Position numbers and translations under genes: made by a program
Shown here: piece by piece, positions 8,624 through 64,000 of the stretch
Position numbering within the stretch: the first letter of the stretch is position 1
How the letters are laid out: each line of letters starts with the position of its first letter
The notes under the pieces: generated by a model
The model's input: only the letters and a program-made list of their open reading frames with translations
Databases searched by the model: none
Told to the model about the DNA's origin: nothing
Assembly (NCBI RefSeq): GCF_023734775.1
Contig: NZ_AP025732.1
Coordinates: 62,001-126,000, forward strand
Length of the DNA: 64,000 nt
Origin: Nostoc cf. commune SO-36
GTDB lineage: Bacteria > Cyanobacteriota > Cyanobacteriia > Cyanobacteriales > Nostocaceae
Reading direction: 5' to 3'

Positions 8624-9985
8624 ATGCCTACCCAAACTTCTACAATTTTCTCGCTCCAGGCACCAAAAGATATTTCGCTTAACGAAATAGATGCCGAACT
8701 CAATCAAATTTGGCAAAGCTACGGCATTACTGGCGAGGACGGTGGACTTCCCAGTGCTACTAGGGCAACAACATTTACTTTAGTGGTCTACGAACCAGAA
8801 GAAACTCAGTATTTGTTGGCTGCTTTGGGATTTTACAACGGCCCAATTGATGGGATTTTAGGGCCACAGATGGTGGCAGCATTGCGGGAATTCCAAAAGA
8901 AACATAAACTGCCAGAAACTGGAACAGCAACACAAGAAACTCTGACAATATTACGAGAAGAATTCGCTAAAGGTCAGCGAGTTGGGACTGGTGGAGAACA
9001 CGCTATTGCTGGGTTAAGTGGTGGCAGCCCCAGAATTGCCGATGAAATCGCTCTCCGCAACCCCTGCCGCATCATTGCGCTATTTCCCATTGCTGGCGAA
9101 GATGAAGGGGTTAAGGCTCAAGTTTCTGCCTATTGCCCCATCCAAAAGCAATCGTCAAGCACACTTATCTGCTGCGAATATATCACTCTCAGTGGAACTG
9201 CTGCTGCCTTAGAACGCATCGGTGGTATGATTCCGGCCTTGTTAATTGGCGGCTTGCCAAAGTTTCTCTGGTGGAAGGCAACACCAGACCCTAACAACGG
9301 TCTATTTAAGCGCCTAGCAGCAGTCTGCAATAATGTGATTGTAGATTCTTGCAACTTCAACGAGCCAGAAAGTGATTTACTTCACTTACAAGAGTTGGTA
9401 GAAACGGGTGTACCTTTAGCTGACTTGAACTGGCGTCGCCTCGCATCATGGCAAGAATTGACAGCTGAGGCTTACGACTCACCTAACCGTCGCGCCGCCC
9501 TCAAAGAAATTGACCGCGTTACGATTGATTACGAAAAAGGCAATCCAGCCCAAGCTTTGCTGTTTTTGGGTTGGCTGGCAAGTCGGTTGCAATGGCAGCC
9601 AGTTTCTTATGAAAAGGAAAGCGGTGATTATGACATCACTCGCATCCGTTTTATTGCTCAAGAGCAGCGACAAGTAGAAGCAGAGTTAGCAGGAGTTCCA
9701 GTTGCTGATGTAGGCGATATTGTTGGTGACTTGATTGCCTTGCGCCTCAGTTCGACAAATCTCCAGGCAGACTGTGGTACAGTTATCTGCTCAGAAACTG
9801 GTGGTTGTATGCGGATGGAAACCCACGGTGGCGCTCAATCTGCCGGTCTGTTTCAACAGGTGACTTCACTTTCGGAACAAAAGGCGGAAGCTTTGCTAAG
9901 TCAGCAGGTGCAACGCTGGGGTCGCGAGTCACTTTTTGAAGAAAGCCTGGGAGTGACAGCAAAAATTTTCAAATTGGCGAATTAA
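8624..9985 (+). CDS. opcA: OpcA, glucose-6-phosphate dehydrogenase assembly/activator protein
   Basis: Allosteric partner that assembles and activates cyanobacterial Zwf, linking it to thioredoxin-dependent redox control. It has 453 residues. Residues ~60-118 form a peptidoglycan-binding-like three-helix unit (YLLAALGFYNGPIDGILGP...ALREFQKKHKLPETG), an insertion seen in Nostoc OpcA proteins. The rest is the OpcA domain, including the C-terminal CGTVICSETGGCMRMETHGG segment with three cysteines that may be redox sensitive (inference). It is the last gene of the fbp-tal-zwf-opcA cluster. The ATG at 8624 follows CTCCT of the repeat block, so initiation is not by a classical ribosome site. Confidence 0.95.
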   Translation: MPTQTSTIFSLQAPKDISLNEIDAELNQIWQSYGITGEDGGLPSATRATTFTLVVYEPEETQYLLAALGFYNGPIDGILGPQMVAALREFQKKHKLPETGTATQETLTILREEFAKGQRVGTGGEHAIAGLSGGSPRIADEIALRNPCRIIALFPIAGEDEGVKAQVSAYCPIQKQSSSTLICCEYITLSGTAAALERIGGMIPALLIGGLPKFLWWKATPDPNNGLFKRLAAVCNNVIVDSCNFNEPESDLLHLQELVETGVPLADLNWRRLASWQELTAEAYDSPNRRAALKEIDRVTIDYEKGNPAQALLFLGWLASRLQWQPVSYEKESGDYDITRIRFIAQEQRQVEAELAGVPVADVGDIVGDLIALRLSSTNLQADCGTVICSETGGCMRMETHGGAQSAGLFQQVTSLSEQKAEALLSQQVQRWGRESLFEESLGVTAKIFKLAN

Positions 9986-52537: not shown

Positions 52538-52729
52538 GAGACTTTTAGTTAAAAAACATCCCATCAAGAGGCGCAAAGCCTTGCGCTCCTACAAACCTAC
52601 AAATAATTTGGGATAATTTATTTTTTGCTAGTCCCTAAGAACTGAACCAGCAACCAACAAGCATAGAGATTATCCCATTTTTGCAGAAATAGTCTCTACC
52701 ATTCATCTTTGTTTTTTTATAATTTTGAA

Positions 52730-52950
52730 AATTCCGAGTCCAAAGGTGCAAACTTCCGAGTTCAAAGGTGCAACTTCCGAGTTCAGAGGTGCAACTTCCG
52801 AGTTCAGAGGCTCAACTTCCGAGTTCAGAGGCTCAACTTTCGAGTTCAAAGGTGCAACTTCCGAGTTCCAAGGCTCAACTTCCGAGTTCCAAGGCTCAAC
52901 TTCCGAGTTCAAAGGCTCAACTTCCGAGTTCAAAGGCTCAACTCCGAGTA
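52730..52950. repeat. 21-bp minisatellite, about 10 copies
   Basis: Unit CAACTTCCGAGTTCAAAGGCT with a few variants (AGAGGTG, CAAGGCT). The period is a multiple of 3, so all frames stay open and both strands show heptapeptide-repeat ORFs (for example NSEVEPL on the minus strand). The ORFs look like by-products: no ribosome site or other protein segment is attached. Confidence 0.88.
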
Positions 52951-52955
52951 AATTT

Positions 52956-57071: not shown

Positions 57072-58692
57072 TTAAGTTTTATCGTATTCTATTTGTCCAT
57101 AATCAAGTTTGATAATTCGGTTTGCTAAATGAAAATAGTGATCGTCGTGGCTAATCACTAGCACTGTTTTACCGCGCGATCGCAGTTCTGGGAGAAGTTG
57201 AGTGTAGAATATTTCTTTGAATACTGGGTCTTGATCGGCTGCCCACTCATCAAATAGATAAATTGGTCGATCTTCCAAGTAAGCTGTGAGCAAAGCTAGC
57301 CGTTTCCGTTGTCCTTGAGAAAGAGAAGTGGTGGAAAGTTGCCCATTTTCAACTTTAACTTTATGGTCTAATTGCAGTTGTTTTAAATATTTTTTGGCTT
57401 GAGCGTCCAAGTCAGAATTTTTTAATCCTAAAAGTTCCTCAAATAAATAAAAGTCGGAAAATACTACGGAAAAATGCTGGCGATACCATTCTCGATTCTC
57501 TTCGCTAATTAAACTCTTCATCAAACCAAATTTCGCCATTTTCTGGGATATAAAGTCCAGTAATTAATTTAGCTAATGTAGATTTACCGCTACCATTGCC
57601 GCCGACAATAAAGACTAATTCTTGAGGATAGAGTGTCAAATCTATAGGGCCAAAAATAAAGCTATTGTCTTCTTGCTCTGTGTAGTAAGTGTGGGTAACA
57701 CGTTTAAATTTTAAGCTGTGCCAGTCAGATTTCAGAGCAGGTGGAACAGTGGATATTTCAGTTCGACTAGCTAGAGATAAACCCAGTGATTCGATTTTTT
57801 GTAAAGCAATGCTGGCTTTGCTTAATAAGGGAAGTTTACTGATGATGTTATCCATCGGTAACACCAAGTAAGTGAAAGTCAAAATGTAGCCAGAGAGAGT
57901 TTCGGGATTGATGGTAAGCAGATTAGGCAGCACGAACAATACAAAACCGAGAGCAAAAAAGAATATGAGTTGACCCCAGCTTGAAGTTATGGCAAAAAGG
58001 CTTAGACCATTAACATTATGATGACGGAACTCGTTAGCAGTTGATTGTAATTTCTCTTCTAAAAAGTCTTCACGCCGCTTGTAGTTTAGTTTGAGTTCCT
58101 TGACTCCTTCGGTAATGGTGCGAAAATGTTTAAACAGTTGATCTTCATCTTCACGAGCTAAAGCCAACAATTTCCCGCCTCTGTTGAGTAGCCACTGACA
58201 ACTAGCGATCGCAACTACTGAAATCCCACAAACCATCAACAATACTAACCAAGAAAGCCAGGTTATATACGTTATACAACCCAGGACGATCGCTAAATTA
58301 ATAAAAATAAAAGGCATCTGATAAACAGCATTAGCCACCGCCTGGATATCTTCTGTTAAAGTTGCCAATAATCGAGAATTCCCTAAGCGTTCCAGATGAC
58401 TCAACTCGGAAGCGAGAATCTGGCGACTCAAACGCATCCGTAATTGCAAGACTGCATTTTGAGAAAGACGAATCAGCATCACTTGAGAAATGATACTGGT
58501 AATTAGTGCAACAATTGCCAGCCCCGCAAAACCCCAAATTATCGATGTGAGGCGGGAAGCATTACCGCTACTTGCAGCATGGCTAATTAAGGCAATCAAG
58601 CCAGCACTACTACCGCCACTCAAAAATCCAGTAGCGATCGCGATCGCTACCATCCCCCAAGAAGAACGCAAAAGAAAGTAAATCAAATTCAT
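57072..58692 (-). pseudogene. Cyclic-peptide export ABC transporter (SyrD/PvdE-type), frameshifted
   Basis: 58692-57505 encodes six transmembrane helices and the first half of the ATPase (Walker A VGGNGSGKSTLAKL) and stops after GEIWFDEEFN. The second half continues in another frame from about 57510 to 57072 (LISEENREWYRQHFSVVF, signature LSQGQRKRLALL, Walker B IYLFDEWAADQDP, VISHDDHYF). A single indel near 57515 explains it. The intact protein would be ~545 residues, the usual length of cyclic-peptide or siderophore exporters. No peptide synthetase is nearby. Could be a real mutation or a sequencing error. Confidence 0.85.
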
Positions 58693-59011
58693 GACAGATG
58701 CCTATACCCAGTTGGATACAACAAAAAATGAAAATCTCTCTTTTTATGTCCCATGCGCGATTTCCATAATAGTTGTTTGCCAACCAATTAAATTTGCATT
58801 GCTAGGGTAAATTTTATATTTTACCAGTTAAACACCCTTTCAAATATCACGATGAATCAGGCAGAAGACAGCTAGGACTTTGCTTTAAGCAAAAATACAT
58901 TTCTAATTTCTTCTGCCTCTTGCCTTTCTTTGGTAAGCTAGTTGAAATTACAGCTAATTCTGTCAAGAAACTGTCAAATTACCTGCTCAGTTTTCCAGGG
59001 TGAAATTTGCG
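58693..59011. other. Upstream region of hpnP
   Basis: No gene or clear repeat. AT-rich, with room for the divergent promoters of the ABC gene and hpnP. No strong ribosome site is seen at 59012; GGG lies 12 bases before it. Confidence 0.5.
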
Positions 59012-60667
59012 ATGACTGTGAATTTAAAGTCTTTAGAGAATCAAATTAACGTAGCGGCCGATTCCAAAACCGCTCCTGTGACTCAAGGAACACGCTACGT
59101 TCCTTCGCACCATCGACGCATTCTGTGTATTTTTCCCAAGTACAGCCGCTCCTTTGGTACTTTTCATCACGCTTACCCACTCATGGGTAATGTCCGGGCT
59201 TTTATGCCACCCCAAGGTATTTTAATTGTGGCTGCCTACTTACCTAAACAATGGGAAGTCCGGTTTATTGATGAGAATGTCAAATCAGCAACCCGGGCTG
59301 ATTATAACTGGGCTGATGTGGTGATTGTGAGTGGAATGCATATCCAGAAACCACAGATTAATCAAATTAATGAACTTGCCCATCGAGCCGGGAAAATTAC
59401 CGTTGTCGGTGGCCCCTCAGTATCTGGTTGTCCAGAATATTACCCTGAATTTGATATTTTACATTTGGGTGAATTGGGAGATGCTAGCGATCGCATGATC
59501 GAATATTTAGACCAAAACTCTCAACGTCCCCAAGCGCAAATTCGCTTTGAAACCAAGGAACGTTTACCCTTAACAGAGTTTCCCACCCCATCTTATCATT
59601 TGCTGAATATTAATAATTATTTCCTGGCAAATGTGCAGTTTTCTAGCGGTTGCCCTTATCACTGCGAGTTTTGCGATATTCCCGAACTCTATGGCAACAG
59701 TCCCCGGATGAAAACACCAGAGCAAGTAGTCGCCGAGTTAGATGCAATGCGACAATCTGGCAATTTGGGGGCAGTGTATTTTGTTGATGATAACTTTGTT
59801 GGCGATCGCCGCGCCGCCATGAAGTTACTTCCGCACCTGATTGACTGGCAAAAACGCAATGGCTACCCAATCCAGTTTGCCTGTGAAGCAACGCTCAACC
59901 TAGCTCAAAGTCCAAAGCTGCTAGAAATGATGCGTGAAGCTTATTTCTGCACAATCTTTTGCGGCATCGAAACACCAGAACCAAATGCTCTCCATGCGAT
60001 TTCTAAAGACCACAATCTGAGTATGCCAATCTTAAAAGCGATTCAGGTTTTAAATAGTTATGGCATGGAAGTAGTATCAGGAATCATCATCGGGTTAGAT
60101 ACAGATACACCAGAAACCGCAGACCGAATTATCGAATTTATGCGGGCATCGCAAATTCCCATGTTGACAATTAACCTGCTTCATGCATTACCGAGAACTC
60201 CATTATGGCGGAGATTAGAAGCAGAAGGGCGACTTCTGTTTGATGAAAGCCGCGAATCAAATGTTGAATTTTTGATGCCTTACGAGCAAGTTGTTGAGAT
60301 GTGGCGGCGCTGCATTACAACTGCTTATGAGCCGGAATTTTTATATCAGCGATTTGCCTACAACATGGAACACACTTATCCAAATCGCATCGAAGTTCCT
60401 AACAGCCCATCTCGCACTTCTGGGGCTAATATTCGCAAAGGTTTAACTTATTTAGCTAATATTTTGCTGCGAATAGGCTTATTTAGTAACTATCGTCAGA
60501 CTTTCTGGAAAATGGCCAAGCCAGCACTAAAAGCAGGTAACATCGAAAACTTGATTCACGTTGGACTTGTCGGACACCATTTAATTAAGTTTGCCCAAGA
60601 TTGCGCCAAAAATGAAGAATCAGCTTCGTTTTATTCCCAGAGAATTGTTACGAAAGTTCGTAGTTAA
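59012..60667 (+). CDS. hpnP: Hopanoid C-2 methylase (B12-binding radical SAM)
   Basis: 551 residues from ATG 59012. It methylates C-2 of bacteriohopanepolyols to give 2-methylhopanoids in membranes. The N-terminal B12-binding region (~30-165: SFGTFHHAYPLMGNVRAFMPPQG, VSGMHIQKPQINQINELAH, VGGPSVSGCPEYYPEFDILHLGE) matches HpnP closely. The radical SAM core has its three cluster cysteines in CPYHCEFCDIPELYG near residue 213. The C-terminal DUF4070 part ends VGHHLIKFAQD...ESASFYS, the same end as known HpnP proteins. No other hopanoid gene is next to it. Known in N. punctiforme and linked to stress and akinetes there. Confidence 0.93.
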   Translation: MTVNLKSLENQINVAADSKTAPVTQGTRYVPSHHRRILCIFPKYSRSFGTFHHAYPLMGNVRAFMPPQGILIVAAYLPKQWEVRFIDENVKSATRADYNWADVVIVSGMHIQKPQINQINELAHRAGKITVVGGPSVSGCPEYYPEFDILHLGELGDASDRMIEYLDQNSQRPQAQIRFETKERLPLTEFPTPSYHLLNINNYFLANVQFSSGCPYHCEFCDIPELYGNSPRMKTPEQVVAELDAMRQSGNLGAVYFVDDNFVGDRRAAMKLLPHLIDWQKRNGYPIQFACEATLNLAQSPKLLEMMREAYFCTIFCGIETPEPNALHAISKDHNLSMPILKAIQVLNSYGMEVVSGIIIGLDTDTPETADRIIEFMRASQIPMLTINLLHALPRTPLWRRLEAEGRLLFDESRESNVEFLMPYEQVVEMWRRCITTAYEPEFLYQRFAYNMEHTYPNRIEVPNSPSRTSGANIRKGLTYLANILLRIGLFSNYRQTFWKMAKPALKAGNIENLIHVGLVGHHLIKFAQDCAKNEESASFYSQRIVTKVRS

Positions 60668-60983
60668 GGTAACAATTAAAATAAGTTTTGAGAGGCTAAA
60701 AGTCTGTTAGAGGTATATACAGAACTGTAAAAAAGTAACCTTGAAGATACACTAGCGATACTTCCTTGGAAAGACGCGATCGCACTGCTACCTGCCTAAG
60801 ATTGTAAGGGTTGAAAGCCCACAATCCATGAAATTATAAGTAATTTCCACTTAGAGATCAAGCAAATATCCTCAGTTGGTACTCCTTTTAAGCGGGGTGC
60901 GATCGCCTGGGCTAACTGCATCAGCAAAGCTAATGGCGCAGTCAGCAATCTCACATATTTGTCAAAGTCGTAACGGAGGATTC
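60668..60983. other. hpnP-MBL intergenic region
   Basis: No gene. A reading frame runs from 60876 into the next gene but lacks a start signal; the real start is at 60984. Two HIP1-like sites are present. Confidence 0.5.
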
Positions 60984-61838
60984 ATGCAAATTCATCATCT
61001 CAATTGCGGCTGTATGTGTCCAATTGGTGGGGCCTTCTTCGATGGCTTCAGTCGCGGCCCGAAGGCTCACCTCGTCTGCCACTGTCTGCTCATCGAGACA
61101 CAGCAGGGACTTGTTCTCATTGATACGGGCTTCGGACTGCGCGATATTCAGTCTCCTTACTCTCGTCTCAGCCCGTTCTTCATTCATTTCAATGGCATCG
61201 AGTTTGATAAAAAATACACGGCACTCGATCAAATTGAGAAGTTGGGATTTTCCGCGCGAGATGTGCGTCATATTGTGCTTACTCACCTCGATTTCGATCA
61301 TGCCGGTGGTCTAGAGGATTTCCCGGAAGCAACCGTCCACGTAATGCAGACTGAGATGGAAACCGCCCAGGATCGGCATGGCTTCATTGCTAAAAGGCGC
61401 TTTCGTCCCGAACAGTGGGACGAGGTTAAGCATTGGAAGTATTATTCGGCGGGAGGCGAACCTTGGTTCGGTTTTGAAGCAGTACGTAACCTCGACGGAC
61501 TACCGCCAGAGATTCTCCTCATCCCCCTTGCTGGTCACACACGGGGTCATGCTGGTATCGCCATCGATACACCAGAGGGTTGGCTTCTACACGCAGGTGA
61601 TGCCTACTTTTATCGGCACGAGATGGACTCAGCTAAAAGACGCTGCACACCAGGTTTACGCGCCTACCAATGGATGATGGAAGTGGATCGCAATGCTCGG
61701 TTGCTCAATCAAGATCGACTACGCGCATTATCAAGCGATCGCAATCAGGACGTGCGCCTGTTCTGTAGTCATGATGCTATTGAGTTCAAAGCGTTCACTG
61801 ATCAATCTAGCGTTCAAAACGAGAAAGTTCATCAATAA
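60984..61838 (+). CDS. Metallo-beta-lactamase-fold hydrolase (lactonase-like)
   Basis: 284 residues from ATG 60984; GGAGG (60975-60979) 4 bases upstream fixes the start. The metal motif HIVLTHLDFDHAGGLEDF is near residue 92-108, with further ligands in PLAGHTRGHAGIA, HAGDAYFY and LFCSHDAIEF. This set matches quorum-quenching N-acyl-homoserine lactonase-type MBL proteins. The N-terminus is Cys/Gly-rich (HHLNCGCMCPIGG). The natural substrate is not known. It lies between hpnP and the phosphatidyltransferase on the same strand, but gaps of 316 and 78 bases leave operon membership open. Confidence 0.88.
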   Translation: MQIHHLNCGCMCPIGGAFFDGFSRGPKAHLVCHCLLIETQQGLVLIDTGFGLRDIQSPYSRLSPFFIHFNGIEFDKKYTALDQIEKLGFSARDVRHIVLTHLDFDHAGGLEDFPEATVHVMQTEMETAQDRHGFIAKRRFRPEQWDEVKHWKYYSAGGEPWFGFEAVRNLDGLPPEILLIPLAGHTRGHAGIAIDTPEGWLLHAGDAYFYRHEMDSAKRRCTPGLRAYQWMMEVDRNARLLNQDRLRALSSDRNQDVRLFCSHDAIEFKAFTDQSSVQNEKVHQ

Positions 61839-61916: not shown

Positions 61917-62531
61917 ATGACTACAAAGCCTTGGGATGCTCAACTTGCTTACTGGCTAGTTCGACCTCTAAAAGACAGTTGGGTAAACCCCAATCATCTC
62001 ACCACACTCAGACTCCTGACTGGATTGCTAGCCACAGCAGCCTTGGCAGTTGGTAGTGCAGACTGGGCTAACATCGGGGCTGGGCTGTTTGTGTTATCGA
62101 ACTTTTTGGATCACACAGACGGTGAATTAGCCCGTTTAAGTGGAAAAAGCAGCAAATTTGGTTACTTATATGATTTAGCTAGTGATACAGCTATTAACGT
62201 TCTCTTGTTTGTGGGTATTGGGTATGGACTGAGGAACAGCTACCTTGGTGATTGGACATTGCTGATGGGCTTAGTATCAGGTGTATCTGTTGCTTCAATT
62301 TTTGCTTGCATTTTCCAATGGCAAAATAAGATAGAGCAAAAACTAGGTAAAGATGCCAGTCGTCCTCCTAATTTTGCTGGATTTGACATTGAAGATGTGC
62401 TGTATTTGTTTCCGCTAGTGACTCTGTTGCAGGGACTAGTACCATTGCTTATCGCAGCTACAATTGGCGCACCAGCTTTTGCAATATGGTTTTTTTGGAA
62501 ATATCGCTTACTTCTCCAGACGGAAGAATGA
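61917..62531 (+). CDS. CDP-alcohol phosphatidyltransferase
   Basis: 204 residues with about five transmembrane helices. The complete family motif is present: DHTDGELARLSGKSSKFGYLYDLASD (about residues 62-87), giving all four Asp and the DG..AR...G...D...D pattern. Such enzymes move a phospho-alcohol from CDP-linked substrates, or a CDP-activated head group, onto lipid. The next genes are a nucleotidyltransferase that could make the CDP donor and phosphoenolpyruvate mutase, which suggests a phosphonate head group (inference). The sequence is unlike PgsA or PssA in its start (MTTKPWDAQLAYWLVRPLKDSWVNPNHLTTLRL), the opening seen in head-group transferases. Confidence 0.9.
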   Translation: MTTKPWDAQLAYWLVRPLKDSWVNPNHLTTLRLLTGLLATAALAVGSADWANIGAGLFVLSNFLDHTDGELARLSGKSSKFGYLYDLASDTAINVLLFVGIGYGLRNSYLGDWTLLMGLVSGVSVASIFACIFQWQNKIEQKLGKDASRPPNFAGFDIEDVLYLFPLVTLLQGLVPLLIAATIGAPAFAIWFFWKYRLLLQTEE

Positions 62532-62714
62532 ACGGCATTATGTATTTGCTGAATAAGCATTTTGCTCTTTGTATTTTTTGTGCAGTTTCACAAAGAATTG
62601 CTATTAGATTAAGAATTAATTAACAAATATTATCTTGAGCAAAAAACAGTCATTATAAAATACTAGGGAAATTTCCGGATTTCCTGATGTCGTAGCTCTG
62701 TTGGTGATTTGACG

Positions 62715-63470
62715 ATGAAGGCAATTATCTTAGCTGCTGGCGTTGGACGACGCTTAGGTAAAGACGGGCAAATCCAACCCAAATGCTTACTGAAGTTTAA
62801 CGGCAAATCTCTACTAGAGCGCCATTTTAACTATCTCCGTCATTACCAAATTGATGAAGTAGTGATTGCTGTGGGTTATCAAGCACAAAAAATTCAGGAT
62901 GAAATCAAAGCATTAGGAGCCGAAAGTTGGGTTAGTACAATTTATAATCCTGACTACACCAAAGGCAGTACAATCAGCCTTTGGACTGTACGTCAGCATT
63001 TAGTTGCTGGCGATGACATATTATTAATGGATGCAGATGTATTGTGCGATCGCCGCATCATCGAACGATTGGTAAAGACAAATATCCCCAACAGCTTCTT
63101 ATTAGATCGGGATTTTGAACCGGGAGATGAACCCGTGAAGCTTTGTGTTAGAGATAATTATCTAGTGGAGTTTCGTAAACAAGTAGCTCCTGGTTTAGCT
63201 TATGATTTTGCCGGTGAGTCAGTGGGATTCTTTCGTTTTGGAAGTGCTGTTGCTCAACGTCTTGCGATTCGCACAGAACAATATGTTACAGACGGACGCG
63301 AGAATGAACCTTATGAAGAAGTAATTCGGGATCTATTATTAGAAACTCCAGAAACATTTGGTTACGAAGACATCACTGGATTACCTTGGCTCGAAATCGA
63401 TTTTCCCCAAGATATTCAACGCGCTCAAAACGATATTTTACCTCAGATAGAAGTCGCAGAAAATTTCTGA
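62715..63470 (+). CDS. LicC/PntC-like nucleotidyltransferase
   Basis: 251 residues from ATG 62715. NTP-transferase fold: nucleotide loop AIILAAGVGRRLGKDG with PKCLLKFNGKSLLERHFNYL, metal Asp in ILLMDADVLCD (near residue 107), and a C-terminal metal/sugar site in LPWLEIDFPQDIQRA. The pattern (KCLLKFNGKSLLERHF, YNPDYTKGSTISLWTVRQHL) is that of phosphocholine or 2-aminoethylphosphonate cytidylyltransferases. Following the CDP-alcohol transferase and before phosphoenolpyruvate mutase, it most likely activates a phosphonate with CTP (inference). An alternative is sugar-1-phosphate activation. Confidence 0.85.
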   Translation: MKAIILAAGVGRRLGKDGQIQPKCLLKFNGKSLLERHFNYLRHYQIDEVVIAVGYQAQKIQDEIKALGAESWVSTIYNPDYTKGSTISLWTVRQHLVAGDDILLMDADVLCDRRIIERLVKTNIPNSFLLDRDFEPGDEPVKLCVRDNYLVEFRKQVAPGLAYDFAGESVGFFRFGSAVAQRLAIRTEQYVTDGRENEPYEEVIRDLLLETPETFGYEDITGLPWLEIDFPQDIQRAQNDILPQIEVAENF

Positions 63471-63848
63471 AAATATCTTTGAAAGAATTCAGGAGTCAGG
63501 AGTCAGAATTCAGTATGAATTATTTGCTACTAGCGGGTGAATCAAGGGGTTGAAAATACCCATTAAACCAATTCGCAATTCGCAATTCGCAATTCGCAAT
63601 GACGCTCGCGGACTCGCTACCGCTACGCTAACGCAATTACGTTTTATGACGGGGATTTAGACCCCGACACAAAACGCGCTGCCTCTGCCTATAGAGGCAG
63701 GGGACTTAAACCCCCAAAGTTTATTAAATATCCGATTTAGTGGTCAAAAACATAGTGGCAGTTTTGAATTTCTCACTAATTGATTCAGAATTCTGACTCC
63801 TAAATTCTGAATTCTTCTTTAATTTATAGGTTGAAAAAAGCAGAATAA
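63471..63848. repeat. Repeat-rich spacer before phosphoenolpyruvate mutase
   Basis: A GAATTCAGGAGTCAGGAGTC element with its inverted end GAATTCTGACTCC...GAATTC (63484-63822), interrupted by CAATTCG tandem units (63570-63598), the string GCGGACTCGCTACCGCTACG and a copy of the dispersed repeat seen at 52456 (63648-63726). These repeats are nested. No gene. Confidence 0.75.
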
Positions 63849-64000
63849 ATGCATCCAATATTTGCACCCAATGACACCTCTGCAAAATTAAATAAATGTG
63901 CCCAATTGCGGTTATTACTAGAATCGCCTCAACTCGACTTCATTATGGAAGCTCACAATGGCATTAGCGCCCGCATTGTAGAAGAGGCTGGATTTAAAGG
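63849..64000 (+). CDS. Phosphoenolpyruvate mutase (5' end only, runs off the window)
   Basis: The first 50 codons are visible from ATG 63849: [27 protein letters not shown], then [23 protein letters not shown]. This is the characteristic N-terminus of phosphoenolpyruvate mutase (PepM/AepX), where the Met-Glu-Ala-His-Asn-Gly segment shapes the active site. PepM makes phosphonopyruvate, the start of nearly all phosphonate synthesis. The decarboxylase and transaminase expected downstream are outside the window. The isocitrate-lyase superfamily alternatives are less likely with MEAHNG. Confidence 0.88.

Follow-up and report, generated by a model that had tools for sequence, protein, structure and literature searches.

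To which molecule does a cyanobacterial phosphonate gene cluster deliver its product? The question is raised by a 64,000-nucleotide stretch of DNA (the window; positions 62001-126000) from the 7.4-Mb genome of Nostoc cf. commune SO-36, which ends in genes for a CDP-alcohol phosphotransferase (CAPT), a nucleotidyltransferase and the beginning of a phosphoenolpyruvate (PEP) mutase (PepM). The initial annotation of the window had described these three in line on the plus strand, where all of them are indeed found, and had proposed a phosphonate head group on a membrane lipid. A full pathway to 2-aminoethylphosphonate (AEP) and a PntC-like enzyme support that proposal, and we revise the acceptor to a likely hopanoid. 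We consider it fairly probable that the cluster makes a phosphonohopanoid, with CAPT joining AEP from its cytidine monophosphate (CMP) conjugate, CMP-AEP, to a hopanoid polyol, the acceptor being read solely from genomic context; a hopanoid is more likely in this role than a glycerolipid. On balance, we believe that phosphonohopanoids constitute a lipid class not yet described, partly C-2 methylated in cyanobacteria; a dedicated CAPT, accompanied by a PepM/PntC module and hopanoid genes across cyanobacteria, gammaproteobacteria, alphaproteobacteria and, probably, Burkholderiales, would make them.

In the proposed pathway, PepM would convert PEP to phosphonopyruvate, phosphonopyruvate decarboxylase (Ppd) would decarboxylate this to phosphonoacetaldehyde, and an AEP transaminase (AEPT) would yield AEP. 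The PntC-like enzyme, and possibly also the nucleotidyltransferase domain fused to PepM, would then form CMP-AEP, from which CAPT, a small membrane enzyme, would transfer the AEP group to a hydroxyl of the hopanoid polyol with release of CMP. We name AEP and CMP-AEP as products because of what is known of these enzyme families. The neighbours HpnI, HpnK and HpnJ point to bacteriohopanetetrol, or a glucosaminyl or cyclitol-ether form of it, as a possible acceptor (for the pathway, see the available text of PMC12583986), C-2 methylated where HpnP acts. The phosphonate may be hydroxylated in relatives that have a dioxygenase of 2OG-Fe(II) or PhyH type.

Hopanoid genes around CAPT and the mutase

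Gene content, orthology, co-occurrence and linkage are established observations. The strongest single argument for a hopanoid acceptor comes from CAPT genes that are not linked to the phosphonate genes, because it concerns the transferase itself. Among carriers whose mutase locus lacks CAPT, all 13 distinct cyanobacteria tested and 22 of the 24 proteobacteria tested have an orthologue at another site in the genome (9 of the 33 proteobacterial loci without CAPT were left out, as were the cyanobacterial L086, with a partial CAPT, and L087; G476 and the genome of L094 were counted as one). Of the 27 loci of such unlinked CAPT genes that were examined, 20 have a hopanoid gene no more than about 1.5 kb away from CAPT (14/14 proteobacterial and 6/13 cyanobacterial), mainly in the arrangements hpnP-CAPT, hpnN-CAPT-hpnA and hpnJ-hpnK-CAPT. 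The 27 remain from 30 loci fetched for 39 matching genomes, nine proteobacterial matches lying outside the set, after removal of L165 and L177, which served as positive controls and had been chosen for being linked, and of L169 (same genome as L168). Among 53 control loci, all cyanobacterial and many from genomes smaller than 2.5 Mb, one contained a hopanoid gene, and that one was an HpnP-like paralogue.

CAPT also follows the mutase. We divided the mutase fusions into clade A (at least 76% identity) and clade B (diverged fusions, 52-55%). In a phylum sample of 386 genomes, strong CAPT matches (above 300 bits; next best 50.8) occur exactly in the three genomes with a full clade-A fusion, and 10 cyanobacteria that lack the full clade-A mutase yielded no orthologue in a search that detected both positive controls. 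A Nostoc that keeps hpnP and has no CAPT match (G278, locus L068) carries at 8698-9156 a PepM-fusion fragment, the C-terminal 152-183 residues at about 90% identity, and has apparently lost the cluster.

The mutase loci themselves were sampled as the best 80 of 423 confirmed loci, 35 cyanobacterial (L069-L103) and 45 proteobacterial (L104-L148); most of the latter are titled Gammaproteobacteria, six just Proteobacteria or Pseudomonadota, and one (L127) Klebsiella pneumoniae metagenome-assembled genome. With L064 and L065 added and the window's own locus (L003, which has hpnP) excluded, the flanks that were fetched contain a hopanoid gene at 24 of 37 cyanobacterial and 36 of 45 proteobacterial loci. 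Here, as for the unlinked CAPT loci and the control loci above, hopanoid genes were labelled by phmmer scores against thresholds of our own choosing. Neighbour clustering, together with curated models run on representatives, identified HpnH, HpnA, HpnB, HpnM, HpnN, HpnG, HpnL and SHC near proteobacterial mutases, and HpnP, HpnH, HpnA, HpnI, HpnJ and HpnK near cyanobacterial ones. The representatives of HpnH, HpnB, HpnM, HpnN (TIGR03480), SHC, HpnA, HpnJ, HpnK and HpnI and the HpnL of L194 score above the curated cut-offs; those of HpnG (184.2 bits, cut-off 187.1), the HpnL of L112 (160.3, cut-off 195.65) and squalene synthase (106.8, cut-off 286.75) score below.

In Calothrix HK-06 (L099), ten genes run on a single strand with gaps of 4-134 bases in the order hpnP-CAPT-OGFe-PntC-PepM-Ppd-AEPT-hpnJ-hpnK-hpnI, where OGFe denotes the 2OG-Fe(II) protein. 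PepM genes lie inside hpn runs in L104 and L133, the order in L104 being SHC-HpnG-PhyH-HpnN-HpnA-HpnL-PntC-PepM-Ppd-AEPT-(DXS)-HpnH-HpnB-HpnM. According to the record's annotation, a Roseomonas marmotae plasmid carries CAPT together with the phosphonate genes, next to hpnH, a hopanoid-associated phosphorylase, shc, hpnE, hpnD and hpnC, and Mycetohabitans shows CAPT-OGFe-HpnL-PntC-PepM-Ppd-AEPT-dxs with an HpnN-like transporter close by. The 2OG-Fe(II) protein lies between CAPT and PntC in many relatives, including L064 (8429-9181) and L065, is missing from that place in the window strain, and has HalD as its best Pfam match. For PhyH proteins of some relatives, the sole NCBIfam match at E <=1e-10 was methylphosphonate hydroxylase (cut-off 500; 198 and 208 bits for the two proteins scanned), and the phosphonate may therefore be hydroxylated in those relatives. 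A mutase tree made by a quick method from 68 rows (38 clade-A rows from cyanobacteria, every other row of the proteobacteria, two clade B and five outgroup) places the cyanobacterial rows within proteobacterial diversity; because the long clade-B branch also falls there, with weak support (SH-aLRT 83), we claim no direction of transfer.

These neighbourhoods bear on a different target, a surface glycan or sugar head group, in which case the acceptor used by CAPT would be linked to polyprenyl or glycan. PntC pathways have been assigned to glycans and lipids alike (Rice et al., PMC6697681, available text), and some loci place CAPT next to HpnI and HpnK, which handle a glucosamine carried by the hopanoid. 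The recurrent neighbour glycosyltransferases that we identified are HpnB and HpnI, in neighbourhoods where many open reading frames (ORFs) are unlabelled and no search was aimed at LicD-type or other glycan enzymes, and we regard a glycan target as quite improbable.

HpnH is above its cut-off in all 51 mutase carriers tested (the window's genome plus those behind 50 of the 80 loci). In a gammaproteobacterial class sample of 185 genomes, the fusion occurs in 12 and HpnH in 25; HpnH is found in 12/12 carriers versus 13/173 others (p 2e-12; this and the following p values carry no kinship correction). The sample is centred on the genome of L105 (titled Gammaproteobacteria), which was picked as a carrier, and excluding that centre the count is 11/11. 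Mutase and HpnH are less than 5 kb apart in 5 of the 12 carriers and on other contigs in 7. A family sample at the level of Nostocaceae (145 genomes, some of which also stand behind the 80 loci, e.g. G466 and L090) has the clade-A fusion in 13 genomes and clade B in five, one genome having both, in addition to the fragment in G278. An HpnP orthologue is present in 43 of the 145 genomes, comprising 11 of the 13 clade-A carriers versus 32 of the 132 others (p 3e-5). The mutase lies at most 15 kb from HpnP or HpnH in 11/13 clade-A carriers and 0/5 clade-B fusions, for which distances to HpnP were read by eye and those to HpnH computed.

These data also speak to the possibility that CAPT moves AEP from CMP-AEP to diacylglycerol, giving a phosphonoglycerolipid, and that the hopanoid genes adjoin since both alter the membrane. 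Eukaryotic CEPT1 uses CDP-ethanolamine with diacylglycerol. We judge such a product unlikely, as it leaves unexplained why CAPT sits beside hopanoid genes even away from phosphonate genes (the 20 loci above), why HpnH matches the mutase in all 12 carriers of the gammaproteobacterial sample, and why PepM is found inside hpn runs.

A number of observations weigh against a hopanoid acceptor. Two proteobacterial carriers have no strong CAPT (none in the genome of L104, 79.6 bits in that of L111), and at 7 of the 13 unlinked cyanobacterial CAPT loci the nearest 1.5 kb or so showed no hopanoid gene. The proteobacterial count drops from 14/14 to 11/14 once HpnG, HpnL and squalene synthase, whose labels are weaker and on which L178, L179 and L192 depend, are set aside. 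No hopanoid gene occurs in the flank of 13/37 cyanobacterial and 9/45 proteobacterial mutase loci, of which 6/13 are shorter than 13 kb and 6/9 shorter than 12 kb, respectively, and the Burkholderia stagnalis and Cupriavidus loci show HpnL alone among the hopanoid-associated genes sought. HpnH is common in the family sample (109/145), such that its presence in 13/13 clade-A carriers gives a p of 0.02. The window strain's own hpnH lies 0.99 Mb from the cluster, and therefore linkage in this strain comes solely from the hpnP-type gene. The solved structures nearest CAPT act on inositol-type or glycerolipid substrates or have an unknown substrate. The open-access literature on hopanoids and phosphonates, mostly judged by title or abstract start and with subscription journals mostly outside it, yielded no phosphonate-bearing hopanoid. 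Finally, the counts are not independent of one another, given kinship and transfer, and shared ancestry or one transferred cluster could inflate them; even so, the varied hopanoid neighbours of CAPT point to repeated retention.

Enzymes of the window cluster and the hpnP-type gene

The features of the cluster are listed below; L003 is a fetched stretch of the same genome that extends beyond the end of the window.

Table 1. Phosphonate cluster of the window and its upstream neighbours. Plain coordinates are window positions.
Feature	Coordinates	Strand	Details
hpnP-type gene, putative B12/radical-SAM hopanoid C-2 methylase	59000-60667	+	555 aa; upstream neighbour; B12-binding, Radical_SAM and DUF4070 domains
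Metallo-beta-lactamase-fold, lactonase-like gene (metallo-hydrolase)	60876-61838		Between hpnP-type gene and CAPT
CAPT, CDP-alcohol phosphotransferase	61917-62531	+	204 aa; PF01066 54.6 bits (cut-off 22); predicted CMP-AEP:hopanoid aminoethylphosphonotransferase
PntC-like cytidylyltransferase	62715-63470	+	PF12804 59.2 bits (cut-off 27); predicted reaction CTP + AEP -> CMP-AEP
PepM fused to a second PF12804 nucleotidyltransferase domain	63849-64000, continues as L003:5849-7504	+	551 aa
Ppd, phosphonopyruvate decarboxylase	L003:7529-9073 (past window)		TIGR03297 448.2 bits (cut-off 312.5); conserved core starts at about L003:7910
AEP transaminase	L003:9123-10238 (past window)		TIGR03301 425.6 bits (cut-off 360.8)

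The initial annotation had looked for a decarboxylase and an aminotransferase past position 64000, and both follow PepM, completing an adjacent AEP biosynthesis set in which all three proteins exceed the curated NCBIfam cut-offs. The PepM fusion scores 385.9 bits with TIGR02320 (cut-off 319.55), and its EDKLFPKTNS fits the EDKxxxxxNS motif of PEP mutase. In CAPT, DHTDGELAR...GYLYDLASD (62109-62186) fits the PF01066 signature DxxDGxxAR...GxxxDxxxD and the fold. Relatives of CAPT and of the nucleotidyltransferase are present in many Nostocales and in proteobacteria, so these are not chance ORFs. The PntC-like ORF (62709-63470, 253 aa) is listed from a TTG at 62709 and probably starts at the ATG at 62715.

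Is the stand-alone nucleotidyltransferase a phosphonate enzyme? A profile of 14 PntC-like relatives gave PntC (6pd1) as its best PDB match, at 80.5 bits (E 1.2e-21, profile positions 2-248 of 250), followed by LicC (65.2 bits), IPCT (55.9 and 53.9) and the best sugar enzyme (45.2). This ranking rules out a sugar-1-phosphate enzyme, a point on which the initial annotation had staked its reading. In an alignment read by eye, the positions of Lys25 and Glu196 of Tde-PntC are kept in 14/14 relatives, and that of Glu104 is Asp, as in LicC. We describe the enzyme as a PntC-like cytidylyltransferase, predicted to use CTP and AEP. The domain fused to PepM is harder to assign: its best PDB match is 2ggo, a sugar-1-phosphate enzyme (64.0 bits), with LicC at 59.4 and PntC at 47.1 on the first half.

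The same ranking bears on an inositol-type diester, in which the nucleotidyltransferase and CAPT, resembling a split IPCT and DIPPS, would make a CDP-polyol ester and AEP would be a separate product. Both the IPCT-like and the DIPPS-like scores are far below cut-off, the profile aligns with PntC over its full length at a higher score than with either IPCT, and inositol-phosphate synthase, at which no search was aimed, is absent from the identified neighbour families; we therefore hold this diester to be very improbable.

That hpnP is near the cluster and that both might modify the membrane was the most fruitful part of the initial annotation, which had the cluster lying right after hpnP; the metallo-hydrolase gene intervenes before CAPT. 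Members of this metallo-beta-lactamase-fold family occur at only 7 of 85 loci, and we keep it out of the proposed mechanism. Among hopanoid genes the window has the hpnP-type gene alone, named by its domains, by 56% identity to a Methylobacterium bullatum protein and by linkage of its orthologues to HpnH elsewhere. The identity to the window genome's two other paralogues (L150, L151) is 33-35%; these are 69% identical to each other. We infer that the M. bullatum protein is itself HpnP; the 21.5-kb locus around it (L197) contains none of the hopanoid genes looked for. HpnP-like paralogues exist and call for caution (PMC10697835, available text), and none of the NCBIfam models that match the window protein is an HpnP model. 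The best of these is PhpK (74.6 bits, cut-off 600), and for this reason we considered a phosphonate methylase resembling PhpK or Fom3. This identity is disfavoured because the orthologue is common without a clade-A mutase (32 of its 43 family genomes lack the full form), and because, of the 31 family genomes that combine it with HpnH and lack a full-length clade-A mutase, 10 have the two genes at most 15 kb apart.

Further features were observed in the course of this work. In several proteobacterial carriers, the strand opposite CAPT holds, at a distance of about 5 kb, another CDP-alcohol transferase homologue with a weaker score (about 80-90 bits; e.g. G433:C2:13267-13839). Second CAPT copies beside phosphonate genes, at L105:8551-9174 and L106:8400-9164, are without the fourth Asp of the motif. 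The translations show short tandem repeats that open long frames at window 52709-52951 and L003:7529-7900, the latter adding a probably spurious N-terminus to the Ppd ORF. By hpnP, an ABC transporter at window 57072-58692 (minus strand) is split into two overlapping ORFs; its relative in L064 is one 539-aa ORF, and the family occurs in 18/38 cyanobacterial loci.

Significance and relation to known systems

Hopanoids, which correspond in bacteria to cholesterol, are investigated for stiffening membranes and, in the fossil form of hopanes, as biomarkers, and many biosynthetic phosphonate clusters have no known product. We know of no report of a C-P bonded hopanoid head group. Should our reading hold, these phosphonate clusters could be given a product by a single enzyme assay or mass-spectrometric search. 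That product would be a zwitterionic hopanoid with a C-P bond resistant to phosphatases and phospholipases, and it would tie a phosphonohopanoid to Nostoc of the lichen-forming clade. Some hopanoids may then go unnoticed where mass lists omit phosphorus, and the biological phosphorus redox cycle would be joined to the hopane biomarker record.

The initial annotation knew of no description of this layout. Clusters with the same genes, in the same genus, were in fact already reported from lichen Nostoc (PMC5987646, Fig. 7): CDP-alcohol transferase, OG-Fe(II), NTP transferase, pepM, ppd and AEP transaminase. They differ in the OG-Fe(II) gene, which a search without positive control did not find anywhere in the window's genome. 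The available text of that paper reads the clusters as phosphonolipid synthesis and draws no hopanoid link, though hpnL appears in the figure legend. The layout is therefore known, and what is new is the likely hopanoid acceptor.

The Pnt pathways, as far as given in the available text of PMC6697681, resemble the window in the PepM-PF12804 fusion, the PntC-like enzyme and CMP-AEP as the expected activated form. The clusters of the characterised PntCs are thought there to serve surface glycans, whereas the window system has CAPT and hopanoid genes attached and two nucleotidyltransferase domains. The HpnI/K/J cyclitol-ether pathway (PMC12583986, available text) shares with our system the neighbouring genes in some loci and a polar group on the side chain; its head groups are sugars, whereas we propose a C-P bonded group. 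The available texts of PMC10697835 and PMC12583986 contain no word starting with phosphon-.

The closest precedent is in Roseomonas, where a hopene cyclase is linked to a PEP mutase gene and a hybrid terpene-phosphonate cluster was suggested (PMC8776678, available text); within the open-access literature, again judged mostly by title or abstract start, this is the sole report we found that joins hopanoid genes and PEP mutase. Like our system, it places a hopanoid core beside PEP mutase. That account, in the text available, concerns Acetobacteraceae only and names no transferase, whereas here the link reaches cyanobacteria and gammaproteobacteria, with CAPT as the candidate joining enzyme.

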